NCBI GenBank assembly: GCA_003116975.1
Contig: BGKB01000056.1
Span: 248,001 to 312,000 of the forward strand
Direction: 5' to 3'
From: Aurantiochytrium sp. KH105
Lineage: Eukaryota > Sar > Bigyra > Thraustochytrida > Thraustochytriidae
Length of the DNA: 64,000 nt
In this document: piece after piece, positions 26,835 to 62,914 of the stretch
Numbering within the stretch: position 1 is the first letter of the stretch
Layout of the letters: each line of letters opens with the position of its first letter
Program-made: the position numbers and the translations under genes
The notes under the pieces: model-generated
What the model was told of the DNA's origin: nothing
The model's database searches: none
Seen by the model: only the letters and a program-made list of their open reading frames with translations

Positions 26835-27459
26835 CCTTTTGCGCGGCAGCGCAGTCGGCTTGCTGAGCGTGCGCGAGTCACGGCGCCGCAAAAGGCCGGT
26901 TTTCTTGAGCGCGCGGGCTCTATGATTGCTTTTTGTTTCAAAGCTTGCACAGTAAGTCTCGCCATCGAGCTCTCTGGCCAGCCTCGTCCCGAAACCTATG
27001 CATGTTGCTCTAATCTACACTTCAAGTTGCGCAGCCCCTTGAAGGAAAAAGAACCGTTGAGGAGTGGCCCACAGCAGCCGTGGCGAATCTCGAACATGTA
27101 GGATCTACTAGGTAATAAAACGGACTTATATTTTTTGGCAGTGTGTACGCAACAGAACCGGGGTAGAATTGCCCTTCCATCGCGACACGAATATCTGCGC
27201 CAAAGACCCATCGGACCACTTGCCGCGAGGGAGAGCTACGTCACGTCGGGTGCGCAGGCTGCCGCGCAGTGTTTGCACCTCCTTCTGCAGTTCGTGTGTT
27301 CGTACGGCGGTTGCGCTGGTGCGAGAACATCCATTGTGCGTGACTGGTTGGCGAGCGCGAGCACGAAAAGTAGTCTCCATCGAGGCCCTCGTCAAACGTG
27401 GTCACGCTACGCTCCGTCCCGAAAAACGCAGCGTTAGCACTTGTGAAGCATAGAGTGGC

Positions 27460-45022: not shown

Positions 45023-45793
<771 letters not shown>

Positions 45794-48700
45794 ATGGCAT
45801 TCGAGAGCTATTCCACGCGGTGCGCTCAAGAACGCGATCTGAGTGCTCTTGAACGGCTCGAGAGTTTTGTGAAGCCGAGCTTTCGCGTTAGTGTCAAGGA
45901 GCTCAAGCATCGCGTAGCATCGTCCGTCGATACCTCTGGTGCGCTCGTCCTGGAAATTCCTAATCATCACTCCGCCGCCCGATCCTCCTCTGCGTCGCTC
46001 TCGTCCGACGACTCGACATCGGCATCGTCGGCGCCAGAGTCGAGATCTTCGCAATCTGAAGACAACGACCAGCTGTCTGCAGGCAGACCTTACGCCAGTG
46101 CTGACAATACGCTTATTGTAGGCGTTTTGTACTTTGTTCGTGCGAACAAGCGCAAGACCCAGCAATTGCGGTACAAGTCTGTGTTTGACCAGGCTGACCC
46201 GGAAGGCGACACTGTCTTTTGGGTACATCTCGTGCTCGACCCGCAAGCACGAGACCTACTCGACTACTTTCACGCGGCTGCACGCACGTTCTGCTTTGAT
46301 ACTCTTGGGGTTAGCAATGTTCGCGCCCTTACTCATTGCAGCGATGTGAGTGATGGGGCAATTTCCAGTTTGTGGGATCTCGAAGACTACGTTACGACAG
46401 CCAAGCGCACGGATCGCAACCTTTTCTTGCACTCGAGCCACGGCGCAACCTTCGTTGGCCTTGTGTCAGGCTACAATATGCGCGACACAGTGAATGCAGG
46501 GTATGCCGTGATTATGCAGTACGATCGGGAGCCCGACACCAAGAACGCCGCGTTTGACGTCATGCGCAAGGACGCTACGATCGCTCGCGTGTCCGTCTCC
46601 GTGCTTCGCGACCTCGTATGCGGTGCAATCGGTCTCTCCGACGAGTCCGGTCAGAAAACTTTTGATGCAGATCGCCCGTGGTTTGAGCTTGGACTCGATT
46701 CTGTCTCGCTCATGGATTTGCACGGAAATCTCGAGACTGCGTTGAACAAGGAACTCGATGTGTCCTTTCTGTTTGCGATCAACACCTTTTCCAAGCTTGT
46801 GCGTGCCGTAGGCGACACAGACGAGGTCAAGGGCGATGAGGCCAGCCGGCATGCAGCGAACCGTACTCCAATGCCAGAGACTAGAGGTGCAGCATCCACT
46901 GGTCTCTCCGTGCTTGGTCTCGGACTCCGCTTTCCTAACCATCGCGGGGCTGGCACGGATCTAGAAACTCTCGAAGCCTTTCACGCAGCTCTTCACGAGG
47001 ACGACGGGGACAACGCTTCCTACAAACGCCTCGTGCAGCGTACGCGTTTTGCGGACCAATTCCTGGAAAAGGGCATTAGTACAGAACAAGCGCGCTGCAT
47101 TCCCTTTGCGCAACGACTTGCCTTAGAGACTGCCTTCTCTGCGCTAGCAGATGGGCCGCCTGGGCTTCTCGAGGCCGCCAATCGCCGCGTCGGAGTCTTT
47201 GTAGGCGCATGGGACGGAGGCTGTCGTGAGGTAATGCAAAAGACAAGCGAGGATGAAGCGGCTTCTGCACACGCTGCTGCGGGATTCTCAACATCCATCA
47301 TTGCCAATCGCATCTCGTACATGCTTGACCTGTCTGGTCCAAGCGTTGTAGTGGACACAGCCTGCTCAAGTTCGCTAGTCGCGCTAGATTATGCATGCAA
47401 GTCCATTGCAGCGGGAACTTGTGAGGCTGCTCTCGTGATCGGCGTCAATGTTGTTGACGAGACAAATTCGGACTCTCGCACCGCCCTGCTCCGCCAAGGC
47501 GGGTTTCTCTCATCTTCATCGGCATGCTTTGCCTTTGATGATCGCGCTGACGGATATGCGAGAAGTGAAGGCGCTGGGGCACTTCTCCTTGCACGCGCGG
47601 GTCTTCTCCCTGGCGCGCAAGATTATGCACGTGCCAAGGTCGCTGCGGTCAGTGTGAACCAGGACGGACGTACCGTCAATCTCCATGCACCAAACCCTGA
47701 AGCACAAACAACGCTCATTCAAGAAGCGTGCCGCATGGCGGGCGTTGAGCCTCATCAAGTGTCTTTTGTGCAGACGCATGGCACGGGAACGCGCCTGGGT
47801 GATCCCATCGAGGCAGCTGGTCTTCACGCAGCGCTGCGATCTTCCTCTTTCCCGAATGATTCACACAACGTCCAATCACCATCGCTGGCGGCGCCGGAAC
47901 CTTTGTTTCTGACGTCCATTAAGTCCCAATTTGGACACCTCGAAGGAGCAGCCGGGATGATCGGTCTCATTGCTACTATACTCGCGCTGCAGACCCGGGA
48001 ACTCCCTGCTAATCGTCGTCTGCAAAAACTCAATCCAGCCGTTGACTTTACTGCCTGGAATCTGGCTCCTGTGGGCCCACTGGGTCCTGTGAAGCTACCT
48101 GCGGAAGCGCAAAGCCTTGTGGCCGGCGTTTCTTCGTTCGGATTTGGTGGGACGAATGCTCACGCTCTTTTACAGTCGGTCGGACCTCTTCGCGGACGTG
48201 AGGAATTCGCATCTCGAGGACGCATTCCTTGGTCTGAGAATTTTCACACAATTCCTTTTGCGCCATTGCTTTCGGAGCCGATCGATCTTGGGGATAAGAG
48301 CGATTTGGAAAGTCTTATGGATCATCGTCTAGGGTCTCTCGAAGTAATTCCGGGTGCTTTTTGGGCGATCATCGTGTCTGAAATGAATCCTGGCGCCCAA
48401 CTTCTTGCCCTTCGCTTTGTTTCGCTCACGCAACTTCCGGTGGGCGACGATTGGTCCATTTCACTGCGCCGTGGTTCCAAAAAGATGGCGATTGTCAACA
48501 ACGCTGGTTATAGCGTCTGCGAGGCCACTGCGCAGTACAATCCTTCACCCTTGCAGGCGCTTGGTAGCTTGGCGGATACCATGGCAGCCTGCTCGTGTGC
48601 CCTGGACCTCTCTTCATTCTATACCCGATTGGGAAATCGGTATGGTCCACGGTTCCAAGCGCTTCGTGAGGCGCGCGCAAGTGACGATGGAGTCATTCTC

Positions 48701-51700
48701 GCCGATCTCTGTGTTGACAGACAATACTCATGTTCCGCGAGGGTCTCGCGTTCCATTCTACTCGATGCTGCGGCACATACGTGCTTTCTTGCCTTTCAGA
48801 ATCAAAGCGCAATCGAAGAACCTCATTACGCTAACGGTTTCGAGGCACTTTGGTGCGACCAGCAATGGCTGCGGAGCAGCCCGGAATCTACAACATGGCG
48901 TTGCGTTGTCTATCGTCAAGATTCTTTGCGCTTCGATTGGGACATCTTCTCTCCAACGGGAAAGCTTGTCGTTTCCGCGAGAGGATTTACTTTGGGAAAG
49001 ACGCGTGTGACCCGCTCCTCATCAGTCCCGCTACAACGCCAGCACGTGGTTGTGTCCCGTTCTGTCTGGCAATTCTTAAACACGGATGAACTCGCTTCGC
49101 AGCGTCGTGTAGAGCCGGATATTGTCATTAGCGAACTGTGCTGCGAATCGCTCCATAAGCGCATTCAAGAACTTCTCGAGTCGACAAATCGACCTCGCGT
49201 GTGTGTTCGTATCCAAGACTCTGCACAAGAGGGCTACATTCGCTCGCTGCGGCGTGAAGAGCCAGCATGGCCACTTCATATGTATTGCGGCCCCGATCAC
49301 GAGGACGTTGTCGTTCTCGAGGATGAGCCAGAGGTTCTCGTATCTGGGCCAGATCAACTTGCTGTGCGTCGACTGATTCCTCTAGAGGATACCCGTGAGA
49401 GCACGGTCACGAGTCCTTTGCCTGTCGTCTGTCCTGTTGAAAATGGAACCTATCTGATTTCCGGCGGAGCAGGTGCCATTGGGTTGAGGATGGCTCGTGA
49501 ATTATTTGCTCGTGGTGCTGGCAAAGTTCTACTGTTGGGTCGCTCGAAGATGCCGAGCGGTCAATCAGCTGCATCTCTCCAGGGCTCTGTGTACCTGCAG
49601 TGTGACATTAGCGATGAGGCAAGTATCCGCAGGGTTGTTGGGCCCTATGCGAACGAAATCCGGGGCGTCATCCACTGTGCAGGCGTTCTTCGCGATGGGA
49701 TGATTGGAAAACTTTCCAATTTCAGCGAGGTTTTCGCCGGCAAAGTTGGTGGCGCAGAATCGCTCATGAAAGTCATCGACCCTCTTCGTGATACGGTTGA
49801 CTTTTTCATACTTTGTTCTTCGGTCACTTCATGCCTAGGAAGCGCGGGTCAAGCCAATTATGCTGCTGCAAATTCTGTCCTTGACGCACTTGCTGAGGCT
49901 GCAGCGTCAGAAAAGGTCGTTAGTATTCAGTGGGGGCCATGGCACGGCCCACAAAGCATGGCAGCTGCATCAGCTACGAGGTGGGAACGTCTAGGACTGC
50001 CTCCCATGGATCCAGATGTCGCCACCGATGCGTTATTCTCTCTTAAGCGTGGTTGCGGTCCTGTAGTCTGTATTGCAGGCATGGATCCTCATGCCCCAGG
50101 AGCAGCAAGTTCGTGGGCTCGCGAACCCATGGTGCGGGAGCTCTTTCTCAATTCAAAGACACTGACATCTTCAGAATCTAGGACAACGTCTGATGACGCG
50201 CGGGTGCTGGTTCGCCGCATTTCATCTACTTTCATTGACGATTGTGACGTCGGCGAGAACGAAATGACACCATGGCGTGATGCTGGTATGGACTCACTCG
50301 CCATGGTAGAATTTCGCAATATGCTGCGCATGGCAATTCCGGAGCACATTACGCTGCGAGACACCGTGCTCTTTGACTACCCAACCCCTCGTGCGCTGAT
50401 TGACTTTTTGTCAGAGGCTATGGATGGTTCTCGTGTGCCTAGTCAGCGTCAAAATCTCGAAATGGTAGTCTCTGCTGCTTCGAGTGGTGCCTTGGCTGTT
50501 ACCGGAGTTGCGTGCCGACTTCCGGGCGGAGCCGACTCCCCTGCAGCATTTTGGGATCTTTTGCAGAGTGGACGTGACACCATGACCGATATTCCTCTGG
50601 GCCGGTTCGACTGGGAAAAGTCTACAGATCGTCTCTATGCTCGAAAAGCTGCCTTTGTGGACAACGTAGACCGCTTTAACGCCGACAAATTTAAGATCGC
50701 CCCCGTTGAAGCACAGCAAATGGACCCGCAACAGAGACTTGCACTTGAAGTTGCCTCCGAGGCGCTCGCAGATGCTCAGTTGGGTGCGGACGCTCGAGTT
50801 GGGGTCTTTGTAGGCGTCATGACCAACGATTGGGCTCGGCTCATGGACCCAGCCAAGCCAACGGCATATTCTGCGTCAGGTCAGATTCCTTGCGTTCTCG
50901 CCAACCGAATCTCCTATGTTCTCGGACTTCAAGGTCCGTCCATGGCAATCGACACTGCATGCAGCTCTTCCCTTGTGGCGCTGGACGTCGCAGCTGCATC
51001 GTTGAGTCGCGGAGACTGTGACGCAGCAATCGTGCTTGGTGTGAACCTTATTCTCGACGACGGTGTTCACGCTGAGGAATGTGCGGCCCGAATGCTTTCA
51101 GCCTCGGGGCGCTGTGCAACTTTTTCTGAAGATGCAGACGGTTACGCTCGCGGTGAGGGCTGTGTAGCATTCGTTCTCGAGCCAGAAGACACTGCAGAGA
51201 GAGCTGGCAAGGCAACATGGGGCAGTGTTCTCTCCACCGCAGTCAATCAGGATGGACGAAGCGCCAACTTGACATCTCCGAATGGTCGAGCACAAGTTGA
51301 CGTGGTCCGCCGAGCTCTTGCTCGAGCAAAGCTTGTCGCAAACGATATCAGCTACATCGAAACGCATGGCACTGGCACTCCGCTAGGGGACCCCATCGAA
51401 GTTGGAGCCTTGAGCGACGCTCTCGGCAGTCATACAGGGCAGGTTTGTCTGGGTGCTCTCAAAACCGTCATTGGCCACGGAGAGGCTGTTGCTGGCGCCT
51501 CGGGTGTGCTCAAGGCTTTGCTTTGCATTGAGCACAGCGAGGTTCCAGCCAATTTGCATCAGTCAAAGATGAATCCCAAGGTTGCAGAGGTCGCCGCGCC
51601 TTGGATGCGATTTCCTCAAAAGCGACCATTTGAGTTGCCCGATCAAGCCATTGCAGGCATCTCGGCATTTGGATTTGGTGGAACAAACGCCCATGCCATC

Positions 51701-54700
51701 GTGGCAGGGCCAAAGGGTCGCGCGCGCACGTCTTCTAAAAGTACGCGAACAATGAAGGATCAGACCGCCCCGCGTATGCCATGGAAAGAAGATGAGCTCG
51801 TCTACAGAATATCATGGAGTGCTAGCTCTTCTTTTCCTTCCTCTGACAACAGCGCCGAATTGACACCAATCCATCAGGTGCAAACTTTTGAGGATGTCCT
51901 CGATGTGGTTCGGAACGTGCCAGCGCATGAGAGACTCAAGGTGACCTTTGTGACCCGCGATTCTGCAACGTGTGCCTTTATTCGCTCGCTCCGGCTCGCT
52001 CGTCCTTCATGGCAGCTTCGTCTTGTTGAATCGACTCGTGCATCGCTGGACGGAGTCATCCTCGACAGGGACGCTCTCGAGCAACGCGTGGATGATCGTG
52101 GTCACGTGAGCATTCCGGTTCTTCAGCGAGCTCCACACTTTGTGCCATACAGTCTCGGTGGCCTTCAGCATCTTGGTCCTGTACTTATTACAGGTGCATC
52201 AGGAGGCATCGGTCGCGCGCTCATTGACTCGCTCCTCGACGCGGGGCTTTCTCAGATTTACGCTCTCTCACGAAGCGGCAAGGCCTCGAATGATCCGCGT
52301 GTGGAGGCGATCCAGTGCGATGTTTGTGATGCCGCATCAGTGGAGCGTGCCGCAGATTTCATCGGGCCAAGCCAGGTCTCTTTCATCTTGCACGCAGCGG
52401 GCATTCTCGAAGAAAAGAGCGTTCTCGAGCTAGATTCCAACACTGTGGAAGCTCACAATTCGGCAAAAGTTCATGGGACGCGTAATCTTGCTTCGAGCTT
52501 TCCGAGTGCTTCACTGATTGCGTTTTCGTCAACATCTTCGGTCTTTGGAATGCGTGACGCTCCTGCATACGCCATGGCAAACGCTTCTATGGAAGAGGAA
52601 ATTTTCCGTCTCCGCGCAGATGGTGTGCGCGCAGCAAGTTTACTTTGGGATCTATGGGCAGAGACTGGCATGGCGCACGCGCGCTCGATGGGTAGTAGCA
52701 AACGTGGCTTAAGTACCCGCCGGGCTTGCCAGATTCTTGTCGGTGTGCTTCAGAATTGGAATGAAACAAACGATCCAAATGGGCTCATCATTCTCGCAGC
52801 GGATCTTGCTCGGTTGCGCCAAAGCTTGGCCAATCCAGCGCTCTTGGACGCACTCGCACCACCTGCAAACCTAGCGGCTTCGGCGCCTGAGCGAGGTGAG
52901 TCTGGCGATCGTTTCGCACCTCATCTGGGTCCTTCTCGACCGCCTCTTTCGCAGAGTCTGCGTCAAGCCTCCACTGCTGAACGCAAAGCTATCCTGGAAG
53001 ACTGGCTAATCGTCAATGCTCGGCAGCGCTATACGGACACGAGTGCTACTCTTACGCCCCAAACCTCCTGGCAGCAGGTCGGTTTCGACTCTCTGTCCAT
53101 GACCGAATTTACTGCCGCTTTGAATGATGCCATTGGGTTACGCAACTCGCCGGATGAGCTCTCGGACACTGTCATGTTCGATTATCCTAACGCGCATGAA
53201 CTTGCGAGCCACGTAGCCCAGGTGTGGAAATTGGAGTCGCGAAGCTTCGTCAGCGAAGGCAACCCCGCTTCGATAGTTGCAGACCAAGCGCCTGAAGCAG
53301 CTGTTGTGAGCATGGCTCTTCGTTTCCCTGGATCGCGCCTGAACGCAAGTCCTAAGGGATTTTGGGACTTTTTGTGCAGCGGAGGCGACGCGATGCAGGA
53401 CATTCCTCCAGATCGCATCCCAACTTTGGCTCGCGACAATGTTGACAAGGAGGACGAGAAACGATTCTCTGGCGTATACGTCCGCAGGGGTGCCTTCTTG
53501 CACCCAGATCTCTTTGATGCCGACATCCGTGGAGCCTTTCCTTTCTCAGATGCAGAAAGCCTAGCCATGGACCCTCATCAACGTCTTGGGCTTCAAGTCG
53601 CAGGCGAGGCGCTCGAGTCTGCTAAAGTTGCTGGAGCCAACATGACTTGCGTTGGAGTCTTTGTTGGAGCGCAAAATACAGAGTACACGCTGTCCCAGGC
53701 TGATCGAGTGGGAACCTTTACTGCGACAAGCACAGCTCTTTCCATCATCGCCAATCGCATTTCCTACGCCTTTGACCTGTCTGGCCCCTCTATGACAATC
53801 GACACGGCATGTTCTTCATCGCTCGTCGCTCTGGACGCCGCGCTAAAGGCTCTTCACGCAGGTGATTGCACGAGCGCGCTCGTTTTGGCCGTCGATCTGA
53901 TGCTTTCGCCCCACCGCTTTGAGACCACCTGCGCGGCGCGCATGCTTTCGCCAAACGGTCGTTGCGCGACCTTTTCGGATGCGGCCGACGGATATGCTCG
54001 CGGTGAAGGCTGCGCTGCTTTGGTTGTAACACTTGATCAGTCAAGTGAACTTCCAGCTTGGGGCATTGTTCACGGCATCGCGCTCAATCAGGACGGCAAG
54101 AGTGCAAATTTGACATCTCCGCGTGGGCCCGCCCAAATCGCCTGCATCGAGTCTGCCTTGCAGCGTGCAGGCGTTGTGGATCGCGATCAAGTCGTCTTTG
54201 TCGAAGCACATGGCACGGGGACCAAATTAGGCGATCCTCAAGAGCTCGAGGCTCTGTCGACCGTCTTTAAAAACCGACGCAAGCCCTTGCATGTTGGTGC
54301 CGTCAAGTCATCGATTGGGCATCTCGAGGCCGCCGCTGGTCTTGCGGGTGTAATCAAGGCGCTATTAAGCCTTAAACACGGCGTACTGCCTCCGAATTTG
54401 CACTGTGATCAGCTCAATCCCCGGATTGCAAAGCTTCAGACGCGCTGTCCTCTGCGCTTTCCTCAAGGCCAGATGATCAAATTGGAACCTGCAGCGCACC
54501 GCCTTGCTGGTGTCTCTTCGTTTGGATTTGGTGGCACGAATGCTCACGTGATTCTTGGATCCGTACCGGATGCACGTGCCGACCGTGCAGCTCGTTGCTT
54601 TCGGCCAAACCTCTTTACCGCACGTGCGATCGAACTTCGTCCGATAACCGGTGTTCCAGGCAAGTGGAAGGAATTATTGCTGCCTGGGGCCGCAAATCTC

Positions 54701-57700
54701 ATCCGAAACCATCGCGTCGGCTCACTTCCAGTGCTCCCTGCGACATCGTACATGGAGCTCGTGCACCCACTCTTTGAGGGGGCCGCTCTGGAGTTTTCGG
54801 ATCTTGATTTGCGTAGTATGTACTTTCTCGAGATGGCGAGGCGCAGGGAAGCAAAAGCAGACGCCTCCTTGGAGTTTGATCTCGAGCTAGATGAAGTCAC
54901 AAGCACTGTGTCGATCTCCTCGGCCCGCGACGGACGCCTTCGAGCGACGATGAAAGTAAGAAAGTTGGAAAACGCGCCTCCACGAGTTGATCTCGCCATG
55001 CTCCGAGAAAAGTGCAGGCGCGAACTCCCAAGTGGCGACGCATTGTACGAAACAATTGGAAACCAATACCAAGGGCCATTCCGCGCCGTGTCGGCCGCAT
55101 GGTCTAGCAAAGATGGTGACTTGCTGCTAGGTCGAGTGTCAATGGACCAGTTCGTTTCAGCGGAAAGCCTTGCTTCTGCCTGGCTAGACGCGGCATCGCA
55201 CGTGGCGCTAGCCGCAATGGACTTGGAGCATCGCAAAAAACCAGTCTATGCAGAGAGTGTGAAGGGCTACATGCTTGCGGCCGCGAACATGAAGCGCCAA
55301 GCCGCTGCCGATCCCTTTGTTTGGTCGTGTATTACGAAAACGTCAGACAATACTTTCGACATGGAGATCTGCAGAGACTCCGGCGAGGTGCTCGCTCAAG
55401 TACGTCAGTTCAGCTTCGGGTTCTTCTCTGCGACGTCGTCCGAGATCTCGAAACCGTTGCAAGATTCGACTCGATTGTGGAGAGATGAGTGGGTCGAGCT
55501 TACCCTTGGAAGAAACGACTCGCAACTCGCTGTTGAGGTCATCGATCTTCCTACCGCAGAAACTTTACTCCCAGAGCTGGCCCATCGCTTGCGCATGGGT
55601 CCATCCCATTCTTATGTAGTGCTGGCGCACACCGCCATGCACTGTGGGCTTATCGCATGCACGCGGCGCGAGTACACGAGTGCAACGCTTATCACCGTAG
55701 AGGGCGGCAGACTACCGAATGGCGTTCATGCTGCTCAGCTCGTCTCTGTGGCACGCAAAACTGGAATGACCTCGTTTCGTGTCAGCTCTACGGATGCAAG
55801 CATATATGGTCGAAAAAGAGTTGCCATGGAGGCTGCGAGTCCAAAAGACGCGCTTTTGCGCGTGCAGCGTGGCGCGACGTATCTCGTGACCGGTGGCGGC
55901 GGAGCTCTTGGACTGCAGGTCGGAAAGGAAATTGCATTGCGTGGTGGCACCGCTGTCCTCTTGGGGCGCTCTGCGCATCTAGCACCTGGTGTGGAGCTCC
56001 CTGCAGGCTGCCGCTATGTATGTTGTGATATTACGGACTCAAGTGCTGTTTCCCGAGTTCTCAGCAAGTTGGAAAAACTTCGTGGAATTGTGCATTGCGC
56101 AGGCGTCTTGCGCGACGGGACGCTCCAATCCGCGCAGCCGAACGATTTTGAAGAAGTTGGCGCCCCCAAGCTACAAGGAGCGCAGGCGCTCTTGGACAAT
56201 GTGGACAGACGGCAGCTTGATTTTGTGGTGCTCTTTTCCTCGGTGGCCGCTACAATCGGGTCCGCAGGTCAAGGGGTCTACGGTGCAATCAACGCGTCCC
56301 TGGACGCAATTGCTGAACGCGAGCACGCGAATGGCACACCTATCGTGAGCATTCGCTGGGGTCCTTGGTCAGGCGCTGGAATGGCAGCAACACTACAAGC
56401 AAAGTGGAAACGGATGCGTCTACAAGCTTTGACGCCTCAAAATGCCCTTGACGAAATGTTTCGACTACCCCGTACCCATGCGGTCGTGACAATCTGCGAA
56501 TTTGATGATGCAAACGAACAGCCTCTTTCAAAGTCGGGCTCTGCAGAATTGCATGCGCGATCCGGTTGGTCTCGAAGCAGCTTGTGTGAGCTCATTCTGG
56601 ACATTGCACAAGAAGTCAGCCCTGATCATACTCGAGTTGGCATGGAGGATCCGTGGCGGGACGCCGGACTCGACTCGCTCGCCATGGTAGAGTTTCGCAA
56701 TCTGCTTCAGGATCGCATTGGCACCGAGACGGCGCAACTCGAAGATACGCTTTTACTTGACTATCCAAACGCTGATGTACTGGTTGACTGGCTCGTGTCT
56801 CAGCTTCCATCCAGCGCCGAAGGACCTGTCGGTAACGAAACTTCGGTGATGAGCATTGTCAACAGCGACGACATTACTGCGCCGAGAGCTGTCGCCGGAG
56901 ATGAAGAGCACATGAAAAGACAGTCTTGCACCACCACCACCACCACCACTACCACCAAGAGCAACGACAACAAAAAAAACAGCATTGACGGACTCCGGAA
57001 GCATGCAGAATTCGCTGGACCAAATGAGGCTGTGGGGTACACGCCAAGAGCTACAACTGTTGTGACCGGCGTTGCGTGCAGGCTTCCAGGAGGTGCAAAC
57101 TCTCCAGAGCGCTTTTGGGAGCTTCTTTGCTCGGGTCGCGATGCCATGCGACCTGTTCCCCTCTCGCGATTCGACATGAGCGCTCACTTTGACACTGATC
57201 TATCGGTCCCTGGCAAATCTTATGTGGACCGAGGCGCTTTCCTTGACAATGTTGATGCTTTTGACAACAGTAAATTCGGTATCTCTGATCTCGAAGCAGC
57301 ACGCATGGATCCTCAGCAGCGGATTGCTGTGGAATGCGCCTATGAAGCTCTCGTGAGCGCTGGCGTGGTCGAGGAACCAACCAAGTCCGGCGCTAAAGTG
57401 TCTCCATCAGCGGTGAAACAAGCCAAAGTCGGCGTCTTCGTTGGAATGATGACAAACGATTGGGCCTCAATGGATCATGGTACGCCCTCCGCCTTCACTG
57501 CTACGGGTCATTCCCCCGCAGTAGCGTCGAACAGGATCTCATACATCTTTGGCCTCACCGGCCCTAGCATGACCATTGACACTGCATGCAGCTCCTCTCT
57601 GGTAGCGCTTGATGCAGCGCGCAGAAGCTTGGAAAGCGGGGATTGCGAGGCAGCTCTCGTTGTTGGTGTCAACCTGATACTTTCGCCCCAGCTATATGTG

Positions 57701-60700
57701 GAAGAGTGCGCGGCGCGTATGCTTTCCCCACGGGGCCGCTGCGCAACCTTTTCGGAAGATGCCGACGGATATGCGCGCGGTGAAGGCTGCGTTGCCATCG
57801 TTTTGCAGCGAAGCGATGATCCAAGCCGTTTATCAGCACTTGGTGAAGTTCTCAGTACTGCAGTCAATCAAGATGGACGCAGTGCAAACATTACCTCGCC
57901 CAATGGACGAGCGCAGGAAGAGGTCATTGGCCTCGCGATTGAGCGAGCCGGAATTCTTCCCGAAAATGTTGCCTTCGTTGAAACTCATGGCACTGGGACT
58001 GCTCTTGGTGACCCGCTCGAGGTAAGCGCGCTCTCGCGCATTTTTCGGGACAGGGAGACTCCACTCGTACTTGGGGCGGCCAAGGCCTCGGTGGGGCACA
58101 CCGAGGGAGCCTCCGGACTCACGGGTCTTTTGAAGGCACTGCTCTGTGTGCATTATGGTGTGGTACCAGGAAATGCAAGCCTCGAAGATGGCCCCAACGC
58201 AAGACTTAACCCCAAAGTGCAACAAGTTGCACTGTCGCAGATGCGATTTCCTGGGCGCGGGGCCAGTGTCACGCTTCCAGTGGACGCGGTGGCGGGCATC
58301 TCAAGTTTTGGTTTCGGCGGAACGAACGCTCACGTTATTGTACGAGCTCCGAGTGCACATGAAGGGCATTTTGATATGATGCGGGGCCGAGAAGATATTA
58401 GCTGGGCGCCAACGCACTTTAGAAGTCCTCTCGCCAGGAACGACACTCTCGTGACTGGTCATCATAGTCTCATGAGGGATGAAAAGGACCGCGACTCACG
58501 AAAAAACCGTGCGCCACGTGAATTTGGACTCTCGGTCAAAGCTGCAGTCCATGAGGTGCTCGATCTCTTTCTCTGGGAGATGACCGCTGCACAGCCACAC
58601 GGGCAAGACGATCAAGAATTTTGGAACATCCAGTTCGAGGATTTGCATCAATGCTCGATGGGCCGGCTCTCTGTCGACGCAAAGCACCGTCGGATCATCA
58701 GCAAGGATGAGACGCCCGGAGACCAAGTCATTTGCAGCGCCGCAGAGCCCTGTGGCAGCGGGTCGCACACATGGCTTGATAAAAGTAATGCAGAAGACGT
58801 GTGGGAGCAGCAATCAGTCGCATGGTTTCGCGAGCAGACGTCCTCGCTTGGATGGCGCTCTGATACACTGACACTAAGTGAGATTTTCGTTTCACGGGAA
58901 ACGAACGCTATTCGACTGAACTTCCCGCAAGGTGTGTTTTCCCAAGAGGGTTATCTATATGCGCCAAATTCTCTTGGCGAGTGCGTGTTGGCTTTGGGGT
59001 TGACGCAAGTATGGGAAGAAGAAGCTCGGACGGGCTATCGTGTTGCGACTGTTCCTTCCTTGACGTCAATCGATAAGTTGTGGCACGCTACAGGCCCAAA
59101 TTTGTCAAGGTCCGCGGGGGAAGGAACGTTCCATTGCATTGTTCGGGCATGCGGGGAATTGACGCTCATTGACGAGGCTTGTAACAAGACAATTCTGAAA
59201 ATGCAAGGTGCGCAATGCGCTTTTGGACAAGGTTTTGGCGGAACGTCGACGTACACTCGATCCTGGACACCGCGCCATATATCTGCATGTGCGAGGTCGT
59301 CCGTCATCCGTCAAACTGGACTCGAGGCTGCACGGCGACATGTGCACCCAGTTGAAATGAAGGATCCTGTGGGAGACGAAGCATTGGAGCATTATTGTGC
59401 TGAGCACATTCGAAAGACGCTCGCCGCAATGCCTTCCGGTTTCGAGCCCTCTGAACCACATCTCGCGCTTCTCTACCGTCGATGGCAGCGCGCCTATGGC
59501 CATACGTCTGGCGATGTAAAAGCGCAGCAAACGTACCAATCAGCGCCCTCAGGTGTAGAGTTTGACTTTGCTCGAAATTGCGTCGACGCGCTACCTGCGA
59601 TTATCAAGGGAGAACGGCCCGCTCTAGACGTTCTCTTTTCGAATCCTGCGTTAACGACCCGTTTGTACAGTGAGTCTACGCCTTCAAATACATGCAATCG
59701 AGCGATCGCGCAGAGTGTCCAGGGCATTGCTGAAACCATTTACAATACAGCGTCTAGTTCTCAGGTTTTGCGCGTGCTCGAGCTTGGCGCGGGAACAGGA
59801 GGCACTACAATGCATGTAGTCGACCTGCTCGACCAAGAGCGCACGGAATACGTCTTTACGGACATTTCCGACTACTTTTTGCGTCAAGCTGAAGTCACCT
59901 TTGCGTCTTACAAAGACATGATGCGCTATGCATTGCTGAATGTGGAGGAGCCTCTCGCACCGCAGGGCTTTGGCCCGAGTCAGTTTGACATTATCATTGC
60001 TTCCAACATTGTCCATGCAACGCAGGAGCTGCACGTGACCTTGAGCAACATTGCTAAACTTCTGGTCCCGGGTGGTTGCTTTTTGCTCAATGAAGCCACA
60101 ATTTCAACTGCGTTTCTTGACGCGACATTCGGTCTTACAAGTGGATGGTGGCGATTTGCAGCCGCACAAGATGCTTCAAGGCCCGAGCGAGATGGACCTT
60201 TGCTAGCACCACTGAAATGGCGTTCTTTGCTTTTGTCCGAGGGCTTTGCTAGCTTTGATGTGGTGCACGAAGCGGCGCAGGGCCAAGTCGTCATGGCAGC
60301 TATCCTCGATTCCAGTACTTTGCAGCCGCCCTCGGCCTTGCAGCCCTCGGCGAGGGCTAGGATCAACGTCGTAAGCGATCGCCAAGATGACGAACTTTTT
60401 CAGGCGCTTCACGCAAGCTCGCAAGGGGAAGGCGCCTCGATTGACGCACTCGTTCTTATCGCCTCGAGGGAGTGTGAGGTCGGCCTGGAAGCTGATGCAA
60501 CACGTTTCTGGTTCGAGACGCTGCAAACATTTGCAAGCAAGCCACAAGGCACGCTTGTGGTCGTGACGCGGAGCGATGAGTGTTCTCTGCATGCAGCGCT
60601 CTGGGGTATGGCGAGGAGTCTCTCCTTGGAAATGTCTCCAGGGTCGTGGCGCATCGTATGTCTCGATCTTGACAAAGACTCGCAAGTAGCAAATACAGTT

Positions 60701-62914
60701 TCCGCCGTGCATGCCGAAGTCCTTTTGAAGCCGTCTAGCAATGGATCGGGAATGCTACAGGTTCGTCTCGTGAGCGGGGAACGATATCTCGGTGTGCTCG
60801 ACCGGTATGCGGTGCCGATTCCACCACGGTCGCCTCCAACGCTGGACGGCACGTATGTAGTGACGGGCGGACTGGGTGGTCTTGGTTTGCTCACGGCCTC
60901 ACTGTTACTCGACTATGGTGTGAGGAACCTCGTGCTCGTGTCGAGGTCTGGGCGTCTTCGTGAGAATGACATCAACGCGTCGACAGAGGCAGACATTATG
61001 GATCGCATCATGAGCTATGTAGGTGTTACCTTGAGACTCGTGGCGTGCGATGTTGGCAATCGAGAGGATTTGGAGCGCAAGGTCTTTGATCGAATCGATG
61101 CAGACGACCGCCTCCCTCCCGTGCGGGGCATTGTGCATGCAGCCGGCATTCTGCGCAATCGCGCAATGAAAAGTATGGACTACGCGGCAGAATTTTTGCC
61201 TGTATTCGTGACCAAGGCCAAGGCGGCAAGGCATCTCGATGATATCGCCCGGGAGCGCAGGTATGATCTCGAACACTTTGTGCTGTATTCTTCTGCTGCA
61301 AGCACCTTTGGTTCTGCTGGGCAGAGCAACCACGCTGCAGCAAATGCAGTTATGGACGCCATTGTGTCCCAACGACGCACAGCAGGCCTTTGTGGAACGT
61401 CGGTTCAGTGGGGCGGATGGGATGATCTCGGCGCAGCAGTAGCGTCACAGCGAACGCAGGAAACGGTACTTGGTCGTGGAATGGGACTACTTCCGATTGA
61501 GAACGGCGCGAACGCGATTCGAGACATTTTCCAGAGCGAAACAGCGCCTGTTTTCGGCGTCAGCGCGGTTTCGTGGCCAATCTTTGGGCCTCAGCAGGCG
61601 GATCCTACCTTTATTGATCGATTCTACCAGGCAAAACACCCGACTGGTGCAAGGGAAACGGAAGATGCGCGACCGACGTCCACGCAGCCTGAGACGAAGA
61701 GCATGCAGGAAGAGAGATCGACTGCCAAGGGCGAAGCGCAGGCATCGTCGCTCGTCGAGGCTTTGCTCAATGAATGTGGTATCCAAGACATGTCCGCATC
61801 GCTGGCTGATCAGGGCCTTGACTCACTGACCTCAATCGAACTCATCGGACTCGTGCGCGCGCAAACGGGCGTGAAGCTTTCACCAACATTCTATCTTGAC
61901 TGTGTCAATGGCCACGGTCTCGCTGCACTACTTGCTCCGTCTTTGAGTAGGCATAGTATTTGCACGCCGTCCCTGAATGATGCTGGGAAGATTTCAGAAA
62001 CGCCATCACAAGAGGAGACAACAACCGTGACAACTCATCAGAGCGCTTCTGCTTCAGATGGTGCAGAGGCAGATCTCCCCTCAATTTCGGCGTGGCTCGA
62101 GCCACTTTTTGCTCCGAAAATGCGTTTGTTCTGCTTTGCCTACGCGGGAGGGCATCCAAATGTATTTCGAGAGTGGACGATGCACATTCCCGCTTGCGTC
62201 CAAATTTGCCCTGTCGCTATGCCTGGCTACGGAAAACAGACGGACCGCGCGTTTTGGCGCTCGATTCCGGAATTAGCTGCGAGTGTGAGCGCCTCGCTTC
62301 CCTCAGATGTTCCATTTGCGCTCGCTGGATCGTGCCTTGGCGCCATAATTTCCTTTGAGGTAGGGCGAACGCTTCGGCAAACTGGCCGCAGACTACCGCT
62401 GCACCACTTTGCAATGGCGTGCAGCGCGCCTCAGGACTACTCGCGTGCACTGCGCCTCCTTTACAGCCATCGACTAAAGGAAAATGCGTTCTTTGTCCCA
62501 TCTGACGAGGCGCACGCTGCTGTGCGCTTCCAGGATCTAAGTGAGCAGGAGCGCGACGACACAGTGCAAGATTTGCATCAGCTAGGCTTCTTCAAGGACG
62601 ACGAGACGTTGTCAAATCTTGCATCCAACAAGGTATACTTTGAGCATGTCATGGCTCAAATTGCGGGACAGATGCAGCTTGCGGAGCGCTATGTTTATGA
62701 AAAGACGTCATCCTTTGAAAGCCCCGTAATCCCTGTGACTGCAATCAGCGGAAGGCTTGACGATACAATTCCTTCTGGTTGGCCACAGGCATGGGAAGCT
62801 CACGCTCCCCAGGGAAGTTTTCGGCACGTGGAGATCGCAGATGGTGGGCACTACATTTTACAAACACATGCGGCTCAGGTGACTCGTGCGATCATCGAAG
62901 ACTTGCTCGACTGA
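45794..62914 (+). CDS. Giant modular type I polyketide synthase lacking acyltransferase domains (trans-AT-like)
   Basis: One uninterrupted frame of 5706 residues from the first in-frame ATG at 45794 (upstream the frame is open only with a TTG and poly-Leu). Approximate order by residue: GNAT-like loading domain 3-246, ACP 256-336; module 1 KS 369-794, DH 824-1073, KR 1216-1399, ACP 1466-1543; module 2 KS 1565-1971, KR 2124-2299, ACP 2393-2478; module 3 KS 2502-2923, DH 2949-3213, KR 3359-3536, ACP 3593-3673; module 4 KS 3753-4186, degenerate DH-like 4242-4486, C-methyltransferase 4589-4843, KR 5014-5216, ACP 5314-5389, thioesterase 5439-5706. All four KSs keep Cys-His-His and all five ACPs keep the D-S phosphopantetheine site. 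No AT (GHSxG) or ER is present, so malonyl units must be loaded by a separate acyltransferase. It is not the thraustochytrid PUFA synthase, which has tandem ACPs. Predicted product: a methylated pentaketide. Confidence 0.93.
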   Translation: MAFESYSTRCAQERDLSALERLESFVKPSFRVSVKELKHRVASSVDTSGALVLEIPNHHSAARSSSASLSSDDSTSASSAPESRSSQSEDNDQLSAGRPYASADNTLIVGVLYFVRANKRKTQQLRYKSVFDQADPEGDTVFWVHLVLDPQARDLLDYFHAAARTFCFDTLGVSNVRALTHCSDVSDGAISSLWDLEDYVTTAKRTDRNLFLHSSHGATFVGLVSGYNMRDTVNAGYAVIMQYDREPDTKNAAFDVMRKDATIARVSVSVLRDLVCGAIGLSDESGQKTFDADRPWFELGLDSVSLMDLHGNLETALNKELDVSFLFAINTFSKLVRAVGDTDEVKGDEASRHAANRTPMPETRGAASTGLSVLGLGLRFPNHRGAGTDLETLEAFHAALHEDDGDNASYKRLVQRTRFADQFLEKGISTEQARCIPFAQRLALETAFSALADGPPGLLEAANRRVGVFVGAWDGGCREVMQKTSEDEAASAHAAAGFSTSIIANRISYMLDLSGPSVVVDTACSSSLVALDYACKSIAAGTCEAALVIGVNVVDETNSDSRTALLRQGGFLSSSSACFAFDDRADGYARSEGAGALLLARAGLLPGAQDYARAKVAAVSVNQDGRTVNLHAPNPEAQTTLIQEACRMAGVEPHQVSFVQTHGTGTRLGDPIEAAGLHAALRSSSFPNDSHNVQSPSLAAPEPLFLTSIKSQFGHLEGAAGMIGLIATILALQTRELPANRRLQKLNPAVDFTAWNLAPVGPLGPVKLPAEAQSLVAGVSSFGFGGTNAHALLQSVGPLRGREEFASRGRIPWSENFHTIPFAPLLSEPIDLGDKSDLESLMDHRLGSLEVIPGAFWAIIVSEMNPGAQLLALRFVSLTQLPVGDDWSISLRRGSKKMAIVNNAGYSVCEATAQYNPSPLQALGSLADTMAACSCALDLSSFYTRLGNRYGPRFQALREARASDDGVILADLCVDRQYSCSARVSRSILLDAAAHTCFLAFQNQSAIEEPHYANGFEALWCDQQWLRSSPESTTWRCVVYRQDSLRFDWDIFSPTGKLVVSARGFTLGKTRVTRSSSVPLQRQHVVVSRSVWQFLNTDELASQRRVEPDIVISELCCESLHKRIQELLESTNRPRVCVRIQDSAQEGYIRSLRREEPAWPLHMYCGPDHEDVVVLEDEPEVLVSGPDQLAVRRLIPLEDTRESTVTSPLPVVCPVENGTYLISGGAGAIGLRMARELFARGAGKVLLLGRSKMPSGQSAASLQGSVYLQCDISDEASIRRVVGPYANEIRGVIHCAGVLRDGMIGKLSNFSEVFAGKVGGAESLMKVIDPLRDTVDFFILCSSVTSCLGSAGQANYAAANSVLDALAEAAASEKVVSIQWGPWHGPQSMAAASATRWERLGLPPMDPDVATDALFSLKRGCGPVVCIAGMDPHAPGAASSWAREPMVRELFLNSKTLTSSESRTTSDDARVLVRRISSTFIDDCDVGENEMTPWRDAGMDSLAMVEFRNMLRMAIPEHITLRDTVLFDYPTPRALIDFLSEAMDGSRVPSQRQNLEMVVSAASSGALAVTGVACRLPGGADSPAAFWDLLQSGRDTMTDIPLGRFDWEKSTDRLYARKAAFVDNVDRFNADKFKIAPVEAQQMDPQQRLALEVASEALADAQLGADARVGVFVGVMTNDWARLMDPAKPTAYSASGQIPCVLANRISYVLGLQGPSMAIDTACSSSLVALDVAAASLSRGDCDAAIVLGVNLILDDGVHAEECAARMLSASGRCATFSEDADGYARGEGCVAFVLEPEDTAERAGKATWGSVLSTAVNQDGRSANLTSPNGRAQVDVVRRALARAKLVANDISYIETHGTGTPLGDPIEVGALSDALGSHTGQVCLGALKTVIGHGEAVAGASGVLKALLCIEHSEVPANLHQSKMNPKVAEVAAPWMRFPQKRPFELPDQAIAGISAFGFGGTNAHAIVAGPKGRARTSSKSTRTMKDQTAPRMPWKEDELVYRISWSASSSFPSSDNSAELTPIHQVQTFEDVLDVVRNVPAHERLKVTFVTRDSATCAFIRSLRLARPSWQLRLVESTRASLDGVILDRDALEQRVDDRGHVSIPVLQRAPHFVPYSLGGLQHLGPVLITGASGGIGRALIDSLLDAGLSQIYALSRSGKASNDPRVEAIQCDVCDAASVERAADFIGPSQVSFILHAAGILEEKSVLELDSNTVEAHNSAKVHGTRNLASSFPSASLIAFSSTSSVFGMRDAPAYAMANASMEEEIFRLRADGVRAASLLWDLWAETGMAHARSMGSSKRGLSTRRACQILVGVLQNWNETNDPNGLIILAADLARLRQSLANPALLDALAPPANLAASAPERGESGDRFAPHLGPSRPPLSQSLRQASTAERKAILEDWLIVNARQRYTDTSATLTPQTSWQQVGFDSLSMTEFTAALNDAIGLRNSPDELSDTVMFDYPNAHELASHVAQVWKLESRSFVSEGNPASIVADQAPEAAVVSMALRFPGSRLNASPKGFWDFLCSGGDAMQDIPPDRIPTLARDNVDKEDEKRFSGVYVRRGAFLHPDLFDADIRGAFPFSDAESLAMDPHQRLGLQVAGEALESAKVAGANMTCVGVFVGAQNTEYTLSQADRVGTFTATSTALSIIANRISYAFDLSGPSMTIDTACSSSLVALDAALKALHAGDCTSALVLAVDLMLSPHRFETTCAARMLSPNGRCATFSDAADGYARGEGCAALVVTLDQSSELPAWGIVHGIALNQDGKSANLTSPRGPAQIACIESALQRAGVVDRDQVVFVEAHGTGTKLGDPQELEALSTVFKNRRKPLHVGAVKSSIGHLEAAAGLAGVIKALLSLKHGVLPPNLHCDQLNPRIAKLQTRCPLRFPQGQMIKLEPAAHRLAGVSSFGFGGTNAHVILGSVPDARADRAARCFRPNLFTARAIELRPITGVPGKWKELLLPGAANLIRNHRVGSLPVLPATSYMELVHPLFEGAALEFSDLDLRSMYFLEMARRREAKADASLEFDLELDEVTSTVSISSARDGRLRATMKVRKLENAPPRVDLAMLREKCRRELPSGDALYETIGNQYQGPFRAVSAAWSSKDGDLLLGRVSMDQFVSAESLASAWLDAASHVALAAMDLEHRKKPVYAESVKGYMLAAANMKRQAAADPFVWSCITKTSDNTFDMEICRDSGEVLAQVRQFSFGFFSATSSEISKPLQDSTRLWRDEWVELTLGRNDSQLAVEVIDLPTAETLLPELAHRLRMGPSHSYVVLAHTAMHCGLIACTRREYTSATLITVEGGRLPNGVHAAQLVSVARKTGMTSFRVSSTDASIYGRKRVAMEAASPKDALLRVQRGATYLVTGGGGALGLQVGKEIALRGGTAVLLGRSAHLAPGVELPAGCRYVCCDITDSSAVSRVLSKLEKLRGIVHCAGVLRDGTLQSAQPNDFEEVGAPKLQGAQALLDNVDRRQLDFVVLFSSVAATIGSAGQGVYGAINASLDAIAEREHANGTPIVSIRWGPWSGAGMAATLQAKWKRMRLQALTPQNALDEMFRLPRTHAVVTICEFDDANEQPLSKSGSAELHARSGWSRSSLCELILDIAQEVSPDHTRVGMEDPWRDAGLDSLAMVEFRNLLQDRIGTETAQLEDTLLLDYPNADVLVDWLVSQLPSSAEGPVGNETSVMSIVNSDDITAPRAVAGDEEHMKRQSCTTTTTTTTTKSNDNKKNSIDGLRKHAEFAGPNEAVGYTPRATTVVTGVACRLPGGANSPERFWELLCSGRDAMRPVPLSRFDMSAHFDTDLSVPGKSYVDRGAFLDNVDAFDNSKFGISDLEAARMDPQQRIAVECAYEALVSAGVVEEPTKSGAKVSPSAVKQAKVGVFVGMMTNDWASMDHGTPSAFTATGHSPAVASNRISYIFGLTGPSMTIDTACSSSLVALDAARRSLESGDCEAALVVGVNLILSPQLYVEECAARMLSPRGRCATFSEDADGYARGEGCVAIVLQRSDDPSRLSALGEVLSTAVNQDGRSANITSPNGRAQEEVIGLAIERAGILPENVAFVETHGTGTALGDPLEVSALSRIFRDRETPLVLGAAKASVGHTEGASGLTGLLKALLCVHYGVVPGNASLEDGPNARLNPKVQQVALSQMRFPGRGASVTLPVDAVAGISSFGFGGTNAHVIVRAPSAHEGHFDMMRGREDISWAPTHFRSPLARNDTLVTGHHSLMRDEKDRDSRKNRAPREFGLSVKAAVHEVLDLFLWEMTAAQPHGQDDQEFWNIQFEDLHQCSMGRLSVDAKHRRIISKDETPGDQVICSAAEPCGSGSHTWLDKSNAEDVWEQQSVAWFREQTSSLGWRSDTLTLSEIFVSRETNAIRLNFPQGVFSQEGYLYAPNSLGECVLALGLTQVWEEEARTGYRVATVPSLTSIDKLWHATGPNLSRSAGEGTFHCIVRACGELTLIDEACNKTILKMQGAQCAFGQGFGGTSTYTRSWTPRHISACARSSVIRQTGLEAARRHVHPVEMKDPVGDEALEHYCAEHIRKTLAAMPSGFEPSEPHLALLYRRWQRAYGHTSGDVKAQQTYQSAPSGVEFDFARNCVDALPAIIKGERPALDVLFSNPALTTRLYSESTPSNTCNRAIAQSVQGIAETIYNTASSSQVLRVLELGAGTGGTTMHVVDLLDQERTEYVFTDISDYFLRQAEVTFASYKDMMRYALLNVEEPLAPQGFGPSQFDIIIASNIVHATQELHVTLSNIAKLLVPGGCFLLNEATISTAFLDATFGLTSGWWRFAAAQDASRPERDGPLLAPLKWRSLLLSEGFASFDVVHEAAQGQVVMAAILDSSTLQPPSALQPSARARINVVSDRQDDELFQALHASSQGEGASIDALVLIASRECEVGLEADATRFWFETLQTFASKPQGTLVVVTRSDECSLHAALWGMARSLSLEMSPGSWRIVCLDLDKDSQVANTVSAVHAEVLLKPSSNGSGMLQVRLVSGERYLGVLDRYAVPIPPRSPPTLDGTYVVTGGLGGLGLLTASLLLDYGVRNLVLVSRSGRLRENDINASTEADIMDRIMSYVGVTLRLVACDVGNREDLERKVFDRIDADDRLPPVRGIVHAAGILRNRAMKSMDYAAEFLPVFVTKAKAARHLDDIARERRYDLEHFVLYSSAASTFGSAGQSNHAAANAVMDAIVSQRRTAGLCGTSVQWGGWDDLGAAVASQRTQETVLGRGMGLLPIENGANAIRDIFQSETAPVFGVSAVSWPIFGPQQADPTFIDRFYQAKHPTGARETEDARPTSTQPETKSMQEERSTAKGEAQASSLVEALLNECGIQDMSASLADQGLDSLTSIELIGLVRAQTGVKLSPTFYLDCVNGHGLAALLAPSLSRHSICTPSLNDAGKISETPSQEETTTVTTHQSASASDGAEADLPSISAWLEPLFAPKMRLFCFAYAGGHPNVFREWTMHIPACVQICPVAMPGYGKQTDRAFWRSIPELAASVSASLPSDVPFALAGSCLGAIISFEVGRTLRQTGRRLPLHHFAMACSAPQDYSRALRLLYSHRLKENAFFVPSDEAHAAVRFQDLSEQERDDTVQDLHQLGFFKDDETLSNLASNKVYFEHVMAQIAGQMQLAERYVYEKTSSFESPVIPVTAISGRLDDTIPSGWPQAWEAHAPQGSFRHVEIADGGHYILQTHAAQVTRAIIEDLLD
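45800..46800 (+). other. PKS loading module: GNAT-like domain and ACP
   Basis: SFRVSVKELKHR...GALVLE, then LIVGVLYFVR, VSNVRALTHCSD, FLHSSHGATFVGLVSGYNMRDTVNAGYAVIMQYD follows the pattern of GNAT-like domains that start some bacterial PKSs by decarboxylating malonyl units. A 45-residue Ser/Asp-rich insert (about 45961-46105) interrupts the first part. The ACP site is FELGLDSVSLMDL near 46690. Confidence 0.7.
46899..50420 (+). other. PKS module 1: KS-DH-KR-ACP
   Basis: KS with DTACSSS (Cys codon 47363-47365), QTHGTGT and FGHLEGAAG. DH with catalytic His in DHRLGSLEVIP (48323-48325) and Asp in LLDAAAH. KR with SGGAGAIG, HCAGVLRDG and the catalytic NYAAAN. ACP site GMDSLAMVEF. The DH directly follows the KS C-terminal linker; there is no AT. 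Confidence 0.88.
50488..53225 (+). other. PKS module 2: KS-KR-ACP
   Basis: KS with DTACSSS (Cys codon 50960-50962), ETHGTGT and a variant GHGEAVAG where GHLEAAAG is usual. KR with TGASGGIG, HAAGILEE and the catalytic AYAMAN. ACP site GFDSLSMTEF. No DH, so a hydroxyl should remain. Confidence 0.88.
53297..56810 (+). other. PKS module 3: KS-DH-KR-ACP
   Basis: KS with DTACSSS (Cys codon 53810-53812), EAHGTGT and GHLEAAAG. DH with His in NHRVGSLPVLP (54710-54712) and Asp in WLDAASH. KR with TGGGGALG, HCAGVLRDG and the catalytic VYGAIN. ACP site GLDSLAMVEF, nearly identical to module 1. Confidence 0.88.
57052..61960 (+). other. PKS module 4: KS-(DH-like)-cMT-KR-ACP
   Basis: KS with DTACSSS (Cys codon 57587-57589), ETHGTGT and GHTEGASG. 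A DH-sized segment follows without recognisable catalytic His/Asp. The C-methyltransferase has the SAM motif LELGAGTGGTT and IIIASNIVHAT. KR has TGGLGGLG, but the catalytic Tyr position reads His (SNHAAAN, codon 61331-61333). ACP site GLDSLTSIEL. Confidence 0.85.
62108..62911 (+). other. PKS terminal thioesterase, type-II-like, with Cys nucleophile
   Basis: An alpha/beta hydrolase beginning RLFCFAYAGG...FREW, with PVAMPGYG, the nucleophile elbow AGSCLGA (Cys codon 62333-62335), Asp in GRLDDTIP and His in GGHYIL. The FCFAYAGG start is the hallmark of discrete type II thioesterases rather than ordinary macrocyclising type I domains. Confidence 0.85.

Follow-up and report, generated by a model that had tools for sequence, protein, structure and literature searches.

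A single-protein, acyltransferase-less modular polyketide synthase in Aurantiochytrium sp. KH105 and its probable loading in trans

Domain organisation of the synthase

The DNA considered here, referred to as the window, is a stretch of 64,000 nucleotides from the thraustochytrid Aurantiochytrium sp. KH105 (contig BGKB01000056.1, positions 248,001 to 312,000). At 45794-62914 on its forward strand lies a single open frame of 5706 residues encoding a modular polyketide synthase (PKS) without an acyltransferase (AT). The interpretation favoured below, and judged likely on balance, is that of a four-module type I PKS contained in one protein, whose acyl carrier proteins (ACPs) would be charged in trans by a free-standing malonyl-CoA:ACP transacylase and whose acetyl starter would be made by a GNAT-like domain. 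The initial annotation had described one gene of 17 kb with four extension modules, intact ketosynthase (KS) and ACP residues and no GHSxG motif, all of which is borne out by analysis of open reading frames (ORFs), motifs and Pfam domains. Its module count was right; it had overlooked the N-terminal GNAT-like loading domain and a His in the fourth ketoreductase (KR). Pfam domains were called at E<=0.01, with the protein split into two overlapping pieces, and the order of domains, including the dehydratases (DH), is as follows.

45794..46537, + strand: predicted GNAT-like decarboxylase loading domain (residues 1-248; T180, H213 and Y243 align with CurA T355, H389 and Y419)
46586..46798, + strand: loading ACP (S303; PF00550, GLDS motif)
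46817..48166, + strand: KS1 (Pfam, motifs)
48221..49093, + strand: DH1 (PF14765; HRLGSLEVIP at 844, DAAAH at 991)
49241..49993, + strand: KR1, catalytic Tyr kept (PF08659)
50141..50413, + strand: ACP1 (Pfam, motif)
50471..51718, + strand: KS2 (Pfam, motifs)
51791..52693, + strand: KR2, catalytic Tyr kept (PF08659)
52946..53218, + strand: ACP2 (Pfam, motif)
53291..54583, + strand: KS3 (Pfam, motifs)
54611..55483, + strand: DH3 (HRVGSLPVLP at 2973, DAASH at 3132; from motif and family alignment, with no Pfam DH at E<=0.01)
55661..56413, + strand: KR3, catalytic Tyr kept (PF08659)
56516..56788, + strand: ACP3 (Pfam, motif)
57071..58348, + strand: KS4 (Pfam, motifs)
58349..59293, + strand: probable decayed dehydratase (double hotdog), the segment between KS4 and the methyltransferase (fold matches, low-confidence model)
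59294..60283, + strand: methyltransferase (MT), probably C-methylating (PF08242, GAGTGG motif)
60401..61483, + strand: KR4, His replacing the catalytic Tyr (PF08659)
61691..61948, + strand: ACP4 (Pfam, motif)
62051..62911, + strand: thioesterase (PF00975) whose nucleophile position holds Cys (GSCLG)

The TACSS, HGTGT and GHxE motifs are present in all four KSs and GxDS in all five ACPs. A homologue search covered 5.8 billion proteins, and among the best 120 of 949 matches there were two full-length homologues, P0002 (51% identity, 100% coverage) and P0003 (43%, 99%), which share the domain order of the KH105 protein. Three further homologues, P0004, P0005 and P0014, are partial or rearranged. 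All five are without an AT. The thioesterase nucleophile position is Cys in each of the six family members. His stands for Tyr in the KR4 motif of five members (the KH105 PKS, P0002, P0003, P0004 and P0014), while the pattern is unmatched in P0005; the 301 KR motifs of other sequences, mostly bacterial and with redundancy not removed, comprise 295 with Tyr and 2 with His. P0004, recorded under Durusdinium trenchii, is a rearranged family member with one KS cut to a stub; it may stem from the dinoflagellate itself or from contamination.

Absence of an acyltransferase

Could an AT be concealed somewhere in the protein? The domain search for PF00698 that the initial annotation had proposed as a check found none in the protein, linkers included, and GHSxG has no match across the 5706 residues. 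A profile built from 25 ATs and searched without filters at E<=10 matched neither the PKS nor its allele nor any of the five homologues. In control runs the same profile gave the three discrete ATs of the genome 227-270 bits and the AT domain (MAT) of its synthase of the polyunsaturated fatty acid (PUFA) type 311 bits. It also detected the shrunken AT remnants that follow all five KSs of another protein, P0007, at 39-46 bits; a similar remnant in the KH105 PKS would therefore have shown. P0007 itself, a PKS of 6528 residues, has lost the active-site Ser in both of the remnants that were read, and resembles ongoing AT decay in a separate line.

The only gap large enough for a hidden AT is the KS4-MT segment, whose identity to P0002 (28%) and P0003 (27%) is the lowest among 19 segments. 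Its structural model, of low confidence (pLDDT 51.8), matched dehydratases, and a free AT chain was absent from the list of fold matches, a result insufficient alone to exclude an AT. Because the profile, Pfam and motif searches agree, and together with the dehydratase matches, an AT concealed in a linker was rejected. The corresponding part of P0003 has two strings resembling DH motifs, HMQDGYLLSP and DAAFQ, which are taken as chance, since in the alignment the first falls within the domain's second half. The modelled segment is thus probably a decayed dehydratase without sign of an AT. The initial annotation had each KS leading straight to a DH, a KR or a linker; no AT lies between them, as it stated, but the "linker" of module 4 looks like a degenerate dehydratase.

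The loading domain

The protein begins directly with a domain whose GNAT fold is nearest to CurA, GphF and SxtA. Like the GNAT-like decarboxylases of those systems it is placed ahead of an ACP and has their Thr/His/Tyr positions (Ser in GphF), with T180 and H213 invariant in all four aligned family members. A difference from those systems is its eukaryotic host. Judging from fold and residues, then, amino acids 1-248 are a predicted GNAT-like decarboxylase of the CurA/GphF type with the catalytic Thr, His and Tyr retained, and would be expected to decarboxylate. A search of NCBIfam with the N-terminal piece gave no match. In searches of the open-licence literature no description was found of a thraustochytrid PKS that is loaded by a GNAT domain; the available part of a single article mentions Schizochytrium along with GNAT and polyketide synthase (PMC11122798).

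Gene limits, alleles and genomic setting

The ORF around the gene extends over 45428-62914 (+; 5828 codons). On contig C27, which carries the allele, the stop-to-stop frame opens one codon ahead of the same Met. Because the allele thus has a stop two codons upstream, the ATG at 45794 is the likely start, as first annotated. The 122 codons upstream of this ATG contain a run of 66 in-frame Leu codons (45506-45703), which is probably not translated, given the stop directly upstream of the start in the allele.

The neighbouring genes are eukaryotic: TBCC, NPR2, Rsm22, Ctr, PfkB/PRK, NDH2-like and protein kinases. Checks of 17 ORFs, out of 23 others in the window with at least 250 residues, and of three ORFs just downstream showed no biosynthetic partner or AT gene near the PKS. 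Of the 14 PF00698 matches counted genome-wide among the best candidates, not one is on the contig of the PKS. The description of a gene standing alone agrees with this, as far as the ORFs that were checked. Strong KS and AT matches are paired across contigs in the 76 Mb assembly. The eukaryotic flanking genes and the presence of the PKS on two contigs rule out a bacterial contaminant, and the gene is eukaryotic, as had been supposed.

Is the gene functional? The decayed fourth DH and the His of KR4 might point to a relic, a reading that is very improbable. Both alleles are open, with 5465 of 5704 aligned residues identical, and the ratio of nonsynonymous to synonymous change (dN/dS) between them is 0.22 over 5704 codons; the locus is under purifying selection. 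The KS and ACP residues are all kept, and two full-length homologues, 43-51% identical, have the same domain order.

Ketosynthase phylogeny and the loss of acyltransferases

Modules without an AT are characteristic of bacterial trans-AT PKSs, and the likeness drawn in the initial annotation could be taken as kinship. The KS tree speaks against this. In a tree of 84 rows, all 19 KSs of the family form one clade (support 98/95), with modules grouped mostly by position. The clade is nested in a larger one of 28 rows (100/99), into which KSs from Myxococcus stipitatus (P0049), Photobacterium damselae (P0117) and P0111 also fall. The 23 trans-AT KSs are placed elsewhere, although their own branch is weak (79/85). 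Forcing the family into one clade with them was rejected by the approximately unbiased (AU) test (p-AU 0.0011), for which the groups were chosen after a first tree. The RhiE-like KS-MAT linker (PF22336), of which P0122, a protein with KSs in the trans-AT clade, has four stretches, is absent from the KH105 PKS at E<=0.01.

Several features of the sample bear on the tree. In the first version, of 89 rows, the long KS1 group joined near the KS of an AT-KS gene on contig C98; this KS, FabF, L089, L090 and L093 were dropped as long or outlying rows before the second tree. L089, a KS followed by an AT, had stood on the trans-AT side, so the two sides are imperfectly sorted by AT content. The trans-AT group was defined by AT-less labels, PF22336 in precomputed domains and position in the first tree. 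For bacterial KSs the AT labels hold only approximately: those of P0007 count as AT-less despite their remnants, and P0016 and P0111 have shortened ATs. The final sample represents 23 of at least 80 scanned loci and 16 of the 117 listed non-family proteins.

Horizontal transfer of a bacterial trans-AT PKS would account for the AT-less modules and the GNAT loading domain. It could also draw on P0122 and P0123, both with KSs in the trans-AT clade, whose similarity to the N-terminal part (E 6.3e-12 for P0122, 5.1e-10 for P0123) emerged from a search that was not exhaustive, having missed P0002 though that protein bears the GNAT domain. Such a transfer is nevertheless quite unlikely. The family KSs fall with cis-AT and shared-AT KSs, the linker of P0122 is missing, and GNAT loading also occurs outside trans-AT lines, since LynB1 has an integrated AT (PMC10127204). 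As the family KSs sit outside the trans-AT KSs and the AU test rejects joining them, the AT-less state probably arose apart from that of bacterial trans-AT PKSs. Most likely, on the strength of these sequence comparisons, the loss of ATs was an independent one, in a lineage akin to cis-AT PKSs.

How might an assembly line lose its ATs? Perhaps through AT sharing. Outside the family, the named proteins whose KSs come closest in the tree are P0049 and P0117. Like the KH105 PKS, they have modules without their own AT; unlike it, they retain one and two ATs, respectively, for four KSs and have adenylation and condensation domains listed. These nonribosomal peptide synthetase-PKS proteins are a possible intermediate state toward AT loss. 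A fuller scenario, which is less likely than not, has ancestors sharing one AT among modules, as P0049 may do, and the present enzyme using a single substrate, one borrowed FabD-like housekeeping AT and a GNAT-made starter. The comparison suggests that integrated ATs have been lost more than once, with the shared ATs of P0049 and the shrunken remnants of P0007 looking like stages of that loss.

Candidate donors of malonyl

Which enzyme could charge the ACPs? The search for discrete ATs proposed with the initial annotation yielded three complete ones. The 14 PF00698 matches among the best candidates, with each gene on two contigs, belong to a type I fatty acid synthase (FAS I), a PUFA-type KS-AT-ACP protein (named from its architecture, beside KS-KS), an AT-KS-ACP protein with a neighbouring AT of 327 residues, and two FabD-like genes. 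The discrete ATs are those on contigs C33/C47, C90/C49 and C98/C89, and all three keep GxSxGE, Arg and His. One of them, the FabD-like C33/C47 protein, shares 94% identity along its entire length with "FabD [Schizochytrium sp.]", which together with FAS I and the PUFA-type synthase points to a probable thraustochytrid host near Schizochytrium.

The nearest PDB entry to the C33/C47 AT is 2c2n, a malonyl-CoA:ACP transacylase (human MCAT; 189.6 bits); that to the C90/C49 AT is 3qat, also a malonyl-CoA:ACP transacylase (175.5 bits). The former starts at its AT domain without a presequence, as the deposited Schizochytrium FabD does, whereas the latter is extended at its N-terminus by some 45 residues, a stretch rich in Arg and Ala that looks mitochondrial by eye. 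For this reason the C33/C47 enzyme is the first candidate. The PUFA-type MAT ranks second.

The C90/C49 AT is complete, and its presumed presequence would fit a mitochondrial donor or a mitochondrial PKS, an option that is rather improbable since the PKS begins directly with its GNAT domain. Somewhat less improbable, yet still unlikely, is supply by the PUFA-type MAT or the FAS I AT. Both megasynthases are encoded in the genome, and the MAT domain of a thraustochytrid PUFA synthase complements an Escherichia coli fabD mutant according to the available part of PMC9702510, so such a domain can act apart from its protein. Complete discrete FabD-like ATs exist, however, and these need not act from within a megasynthase. 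The idea of a borrowed AT thus stands in that an AT-less line would need loading in trans and discrete ATs exist elsewhere in the genome as candidate donors.

Comparison with known systems

An AT-less multimodular PKS in a eukaryote, the central point of the initial annotation, is not new in itself. Published examples come from chlorophytes, from E. huxleyi, a haptophyte, and from one dinoflagellate (available text of PMC4661987, PMC7073580 and PMC10455422), and one has been printed for the thraustochytrid Mn4. The KH105 PKS is a well-preserved enzyme of this kind, having several KS modules without an AT, a eukaryotic genome and free-standing ATs elsewhere in it. Like it, the chlorophyte and E. 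huxleyi PKSs are large and multimodular, have no integrated AT and are thought to use a trans-acting one (PMC4661987, PMC7073580, in part). In the same sources, the Chlamydomonas enzyme takes its starter through an adenylation domain, and PKSs of haptophytes have a single N-terminal AT (PMC7073580), in contrast to the GNAT-like domain here, and most algal trans-AT PKSs are without the MT that the KH105 protein has (PMC4661987). Bacterial trans-AT PKSs share the AT-less modules but differ in KS clade; the KH105 PKS has neither their RhiE-like linker nor an AT gene found nearby.

The closest printed counterpart is Mn4_04057, given as PP-KS-DH-KR-PP:KS-KR-PP-KS-DH-KR-PP:KS-MT-KR-PP-TE. Compared by printed order alone, it is AT-less and has the KH105 domain order, while naming neither a GNAT domain nor a DH in module 4, both of which are seen in KH105. 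Ten AT-only genes are listed beside it, and the available text discusses it only as a poor candidate for synthesis of docosahexaenoic acid (PMC6050695). The KH105 gene is unmentioned in the available parts of PMC10394414 and PMC10794256. What the present analysis adds is the predicted initiation logic and a probably independent loss of ATs.

Contig C98 (189000-202000; loci L042 and L043, with matches on C89) encodes an AT-KS-ACP protein of 2062 residues, parts of which resemble methionine synthase and flavin/NAD oxidoreductases, and next to it the AT of 327 residues. Together they are reminiscent of Mn4_10926 (AT-KS-PP) and Mn4_10925 (AT) in the available text of PMC6050695.

Proposed mechanism and product

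In the proposed scheme of trans loading, all five ACPs would be malonylated by one free-standing malonyl-CoA:ACP transacylase, and the GNAT-like domain would decarboxylate the malonyl group on the loading ACP to give an acetyl starter. With such a decarboxylase present, one malonyl donor could thus both charge the five ACPs and provide the starter. If the chain passes each module once, modules 1-3 would add two carbons each, with processing by KR and DH, by KR, and by KR and DH, respectively. Module 4 would add two carbons and a methyl group from S-adenosylmethionine, probably leaving the beta-keto group, because its DH is decayed and KR4 is without Tyr. The Cys-type thioesterase would then free the chain. 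From domain order alone, and assuming that DH4 and KR4 are inactive, the predicted product is 7-hydroxy-2-methyl-3-oxodeca-4,8-dienoic acid, a cyclised form of it, or the decarboxylated ketone.

A number of points weigh against this scheme. The Mn4 gene with this domain order is weakly expressed (3.52 fragments per kilobase per million, FPKM; available text of PMC6050695). The position of CurA Arg404, which has a possible role in acetyl transfer (PMC3701320), is Asn in the KH105 PKS and in all four aligned members. No AT is linked to the PKS gene, the ATs of the PUFA-type synthase and FAS I could serve, and an unseen upstream exon could supply the C33 AT with a presequence. As for the origin of the line, the family was not one clade in the first KS tree, where two label changes were needed, and named PKSs of chlorophytes, haptophytes and apicomplexans are absent from the trees, in which the Durusdinium record P0004 is the only named algal one.

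The KH105 PKS offers an apparently intact example, near the industrially used Schizochytrium, for testing trans loading of a eukaryotic assembly line; the candidate donor ATs are few and the product predicted for it is simple.

Other observations

Contig C104 (48087-48533; L029) has a KS-like stretch interrupted by two TGA codons. Within the window, 19551-26891 (-) encodes a protein of 2446 residues with fn3 and EF-hand domains.
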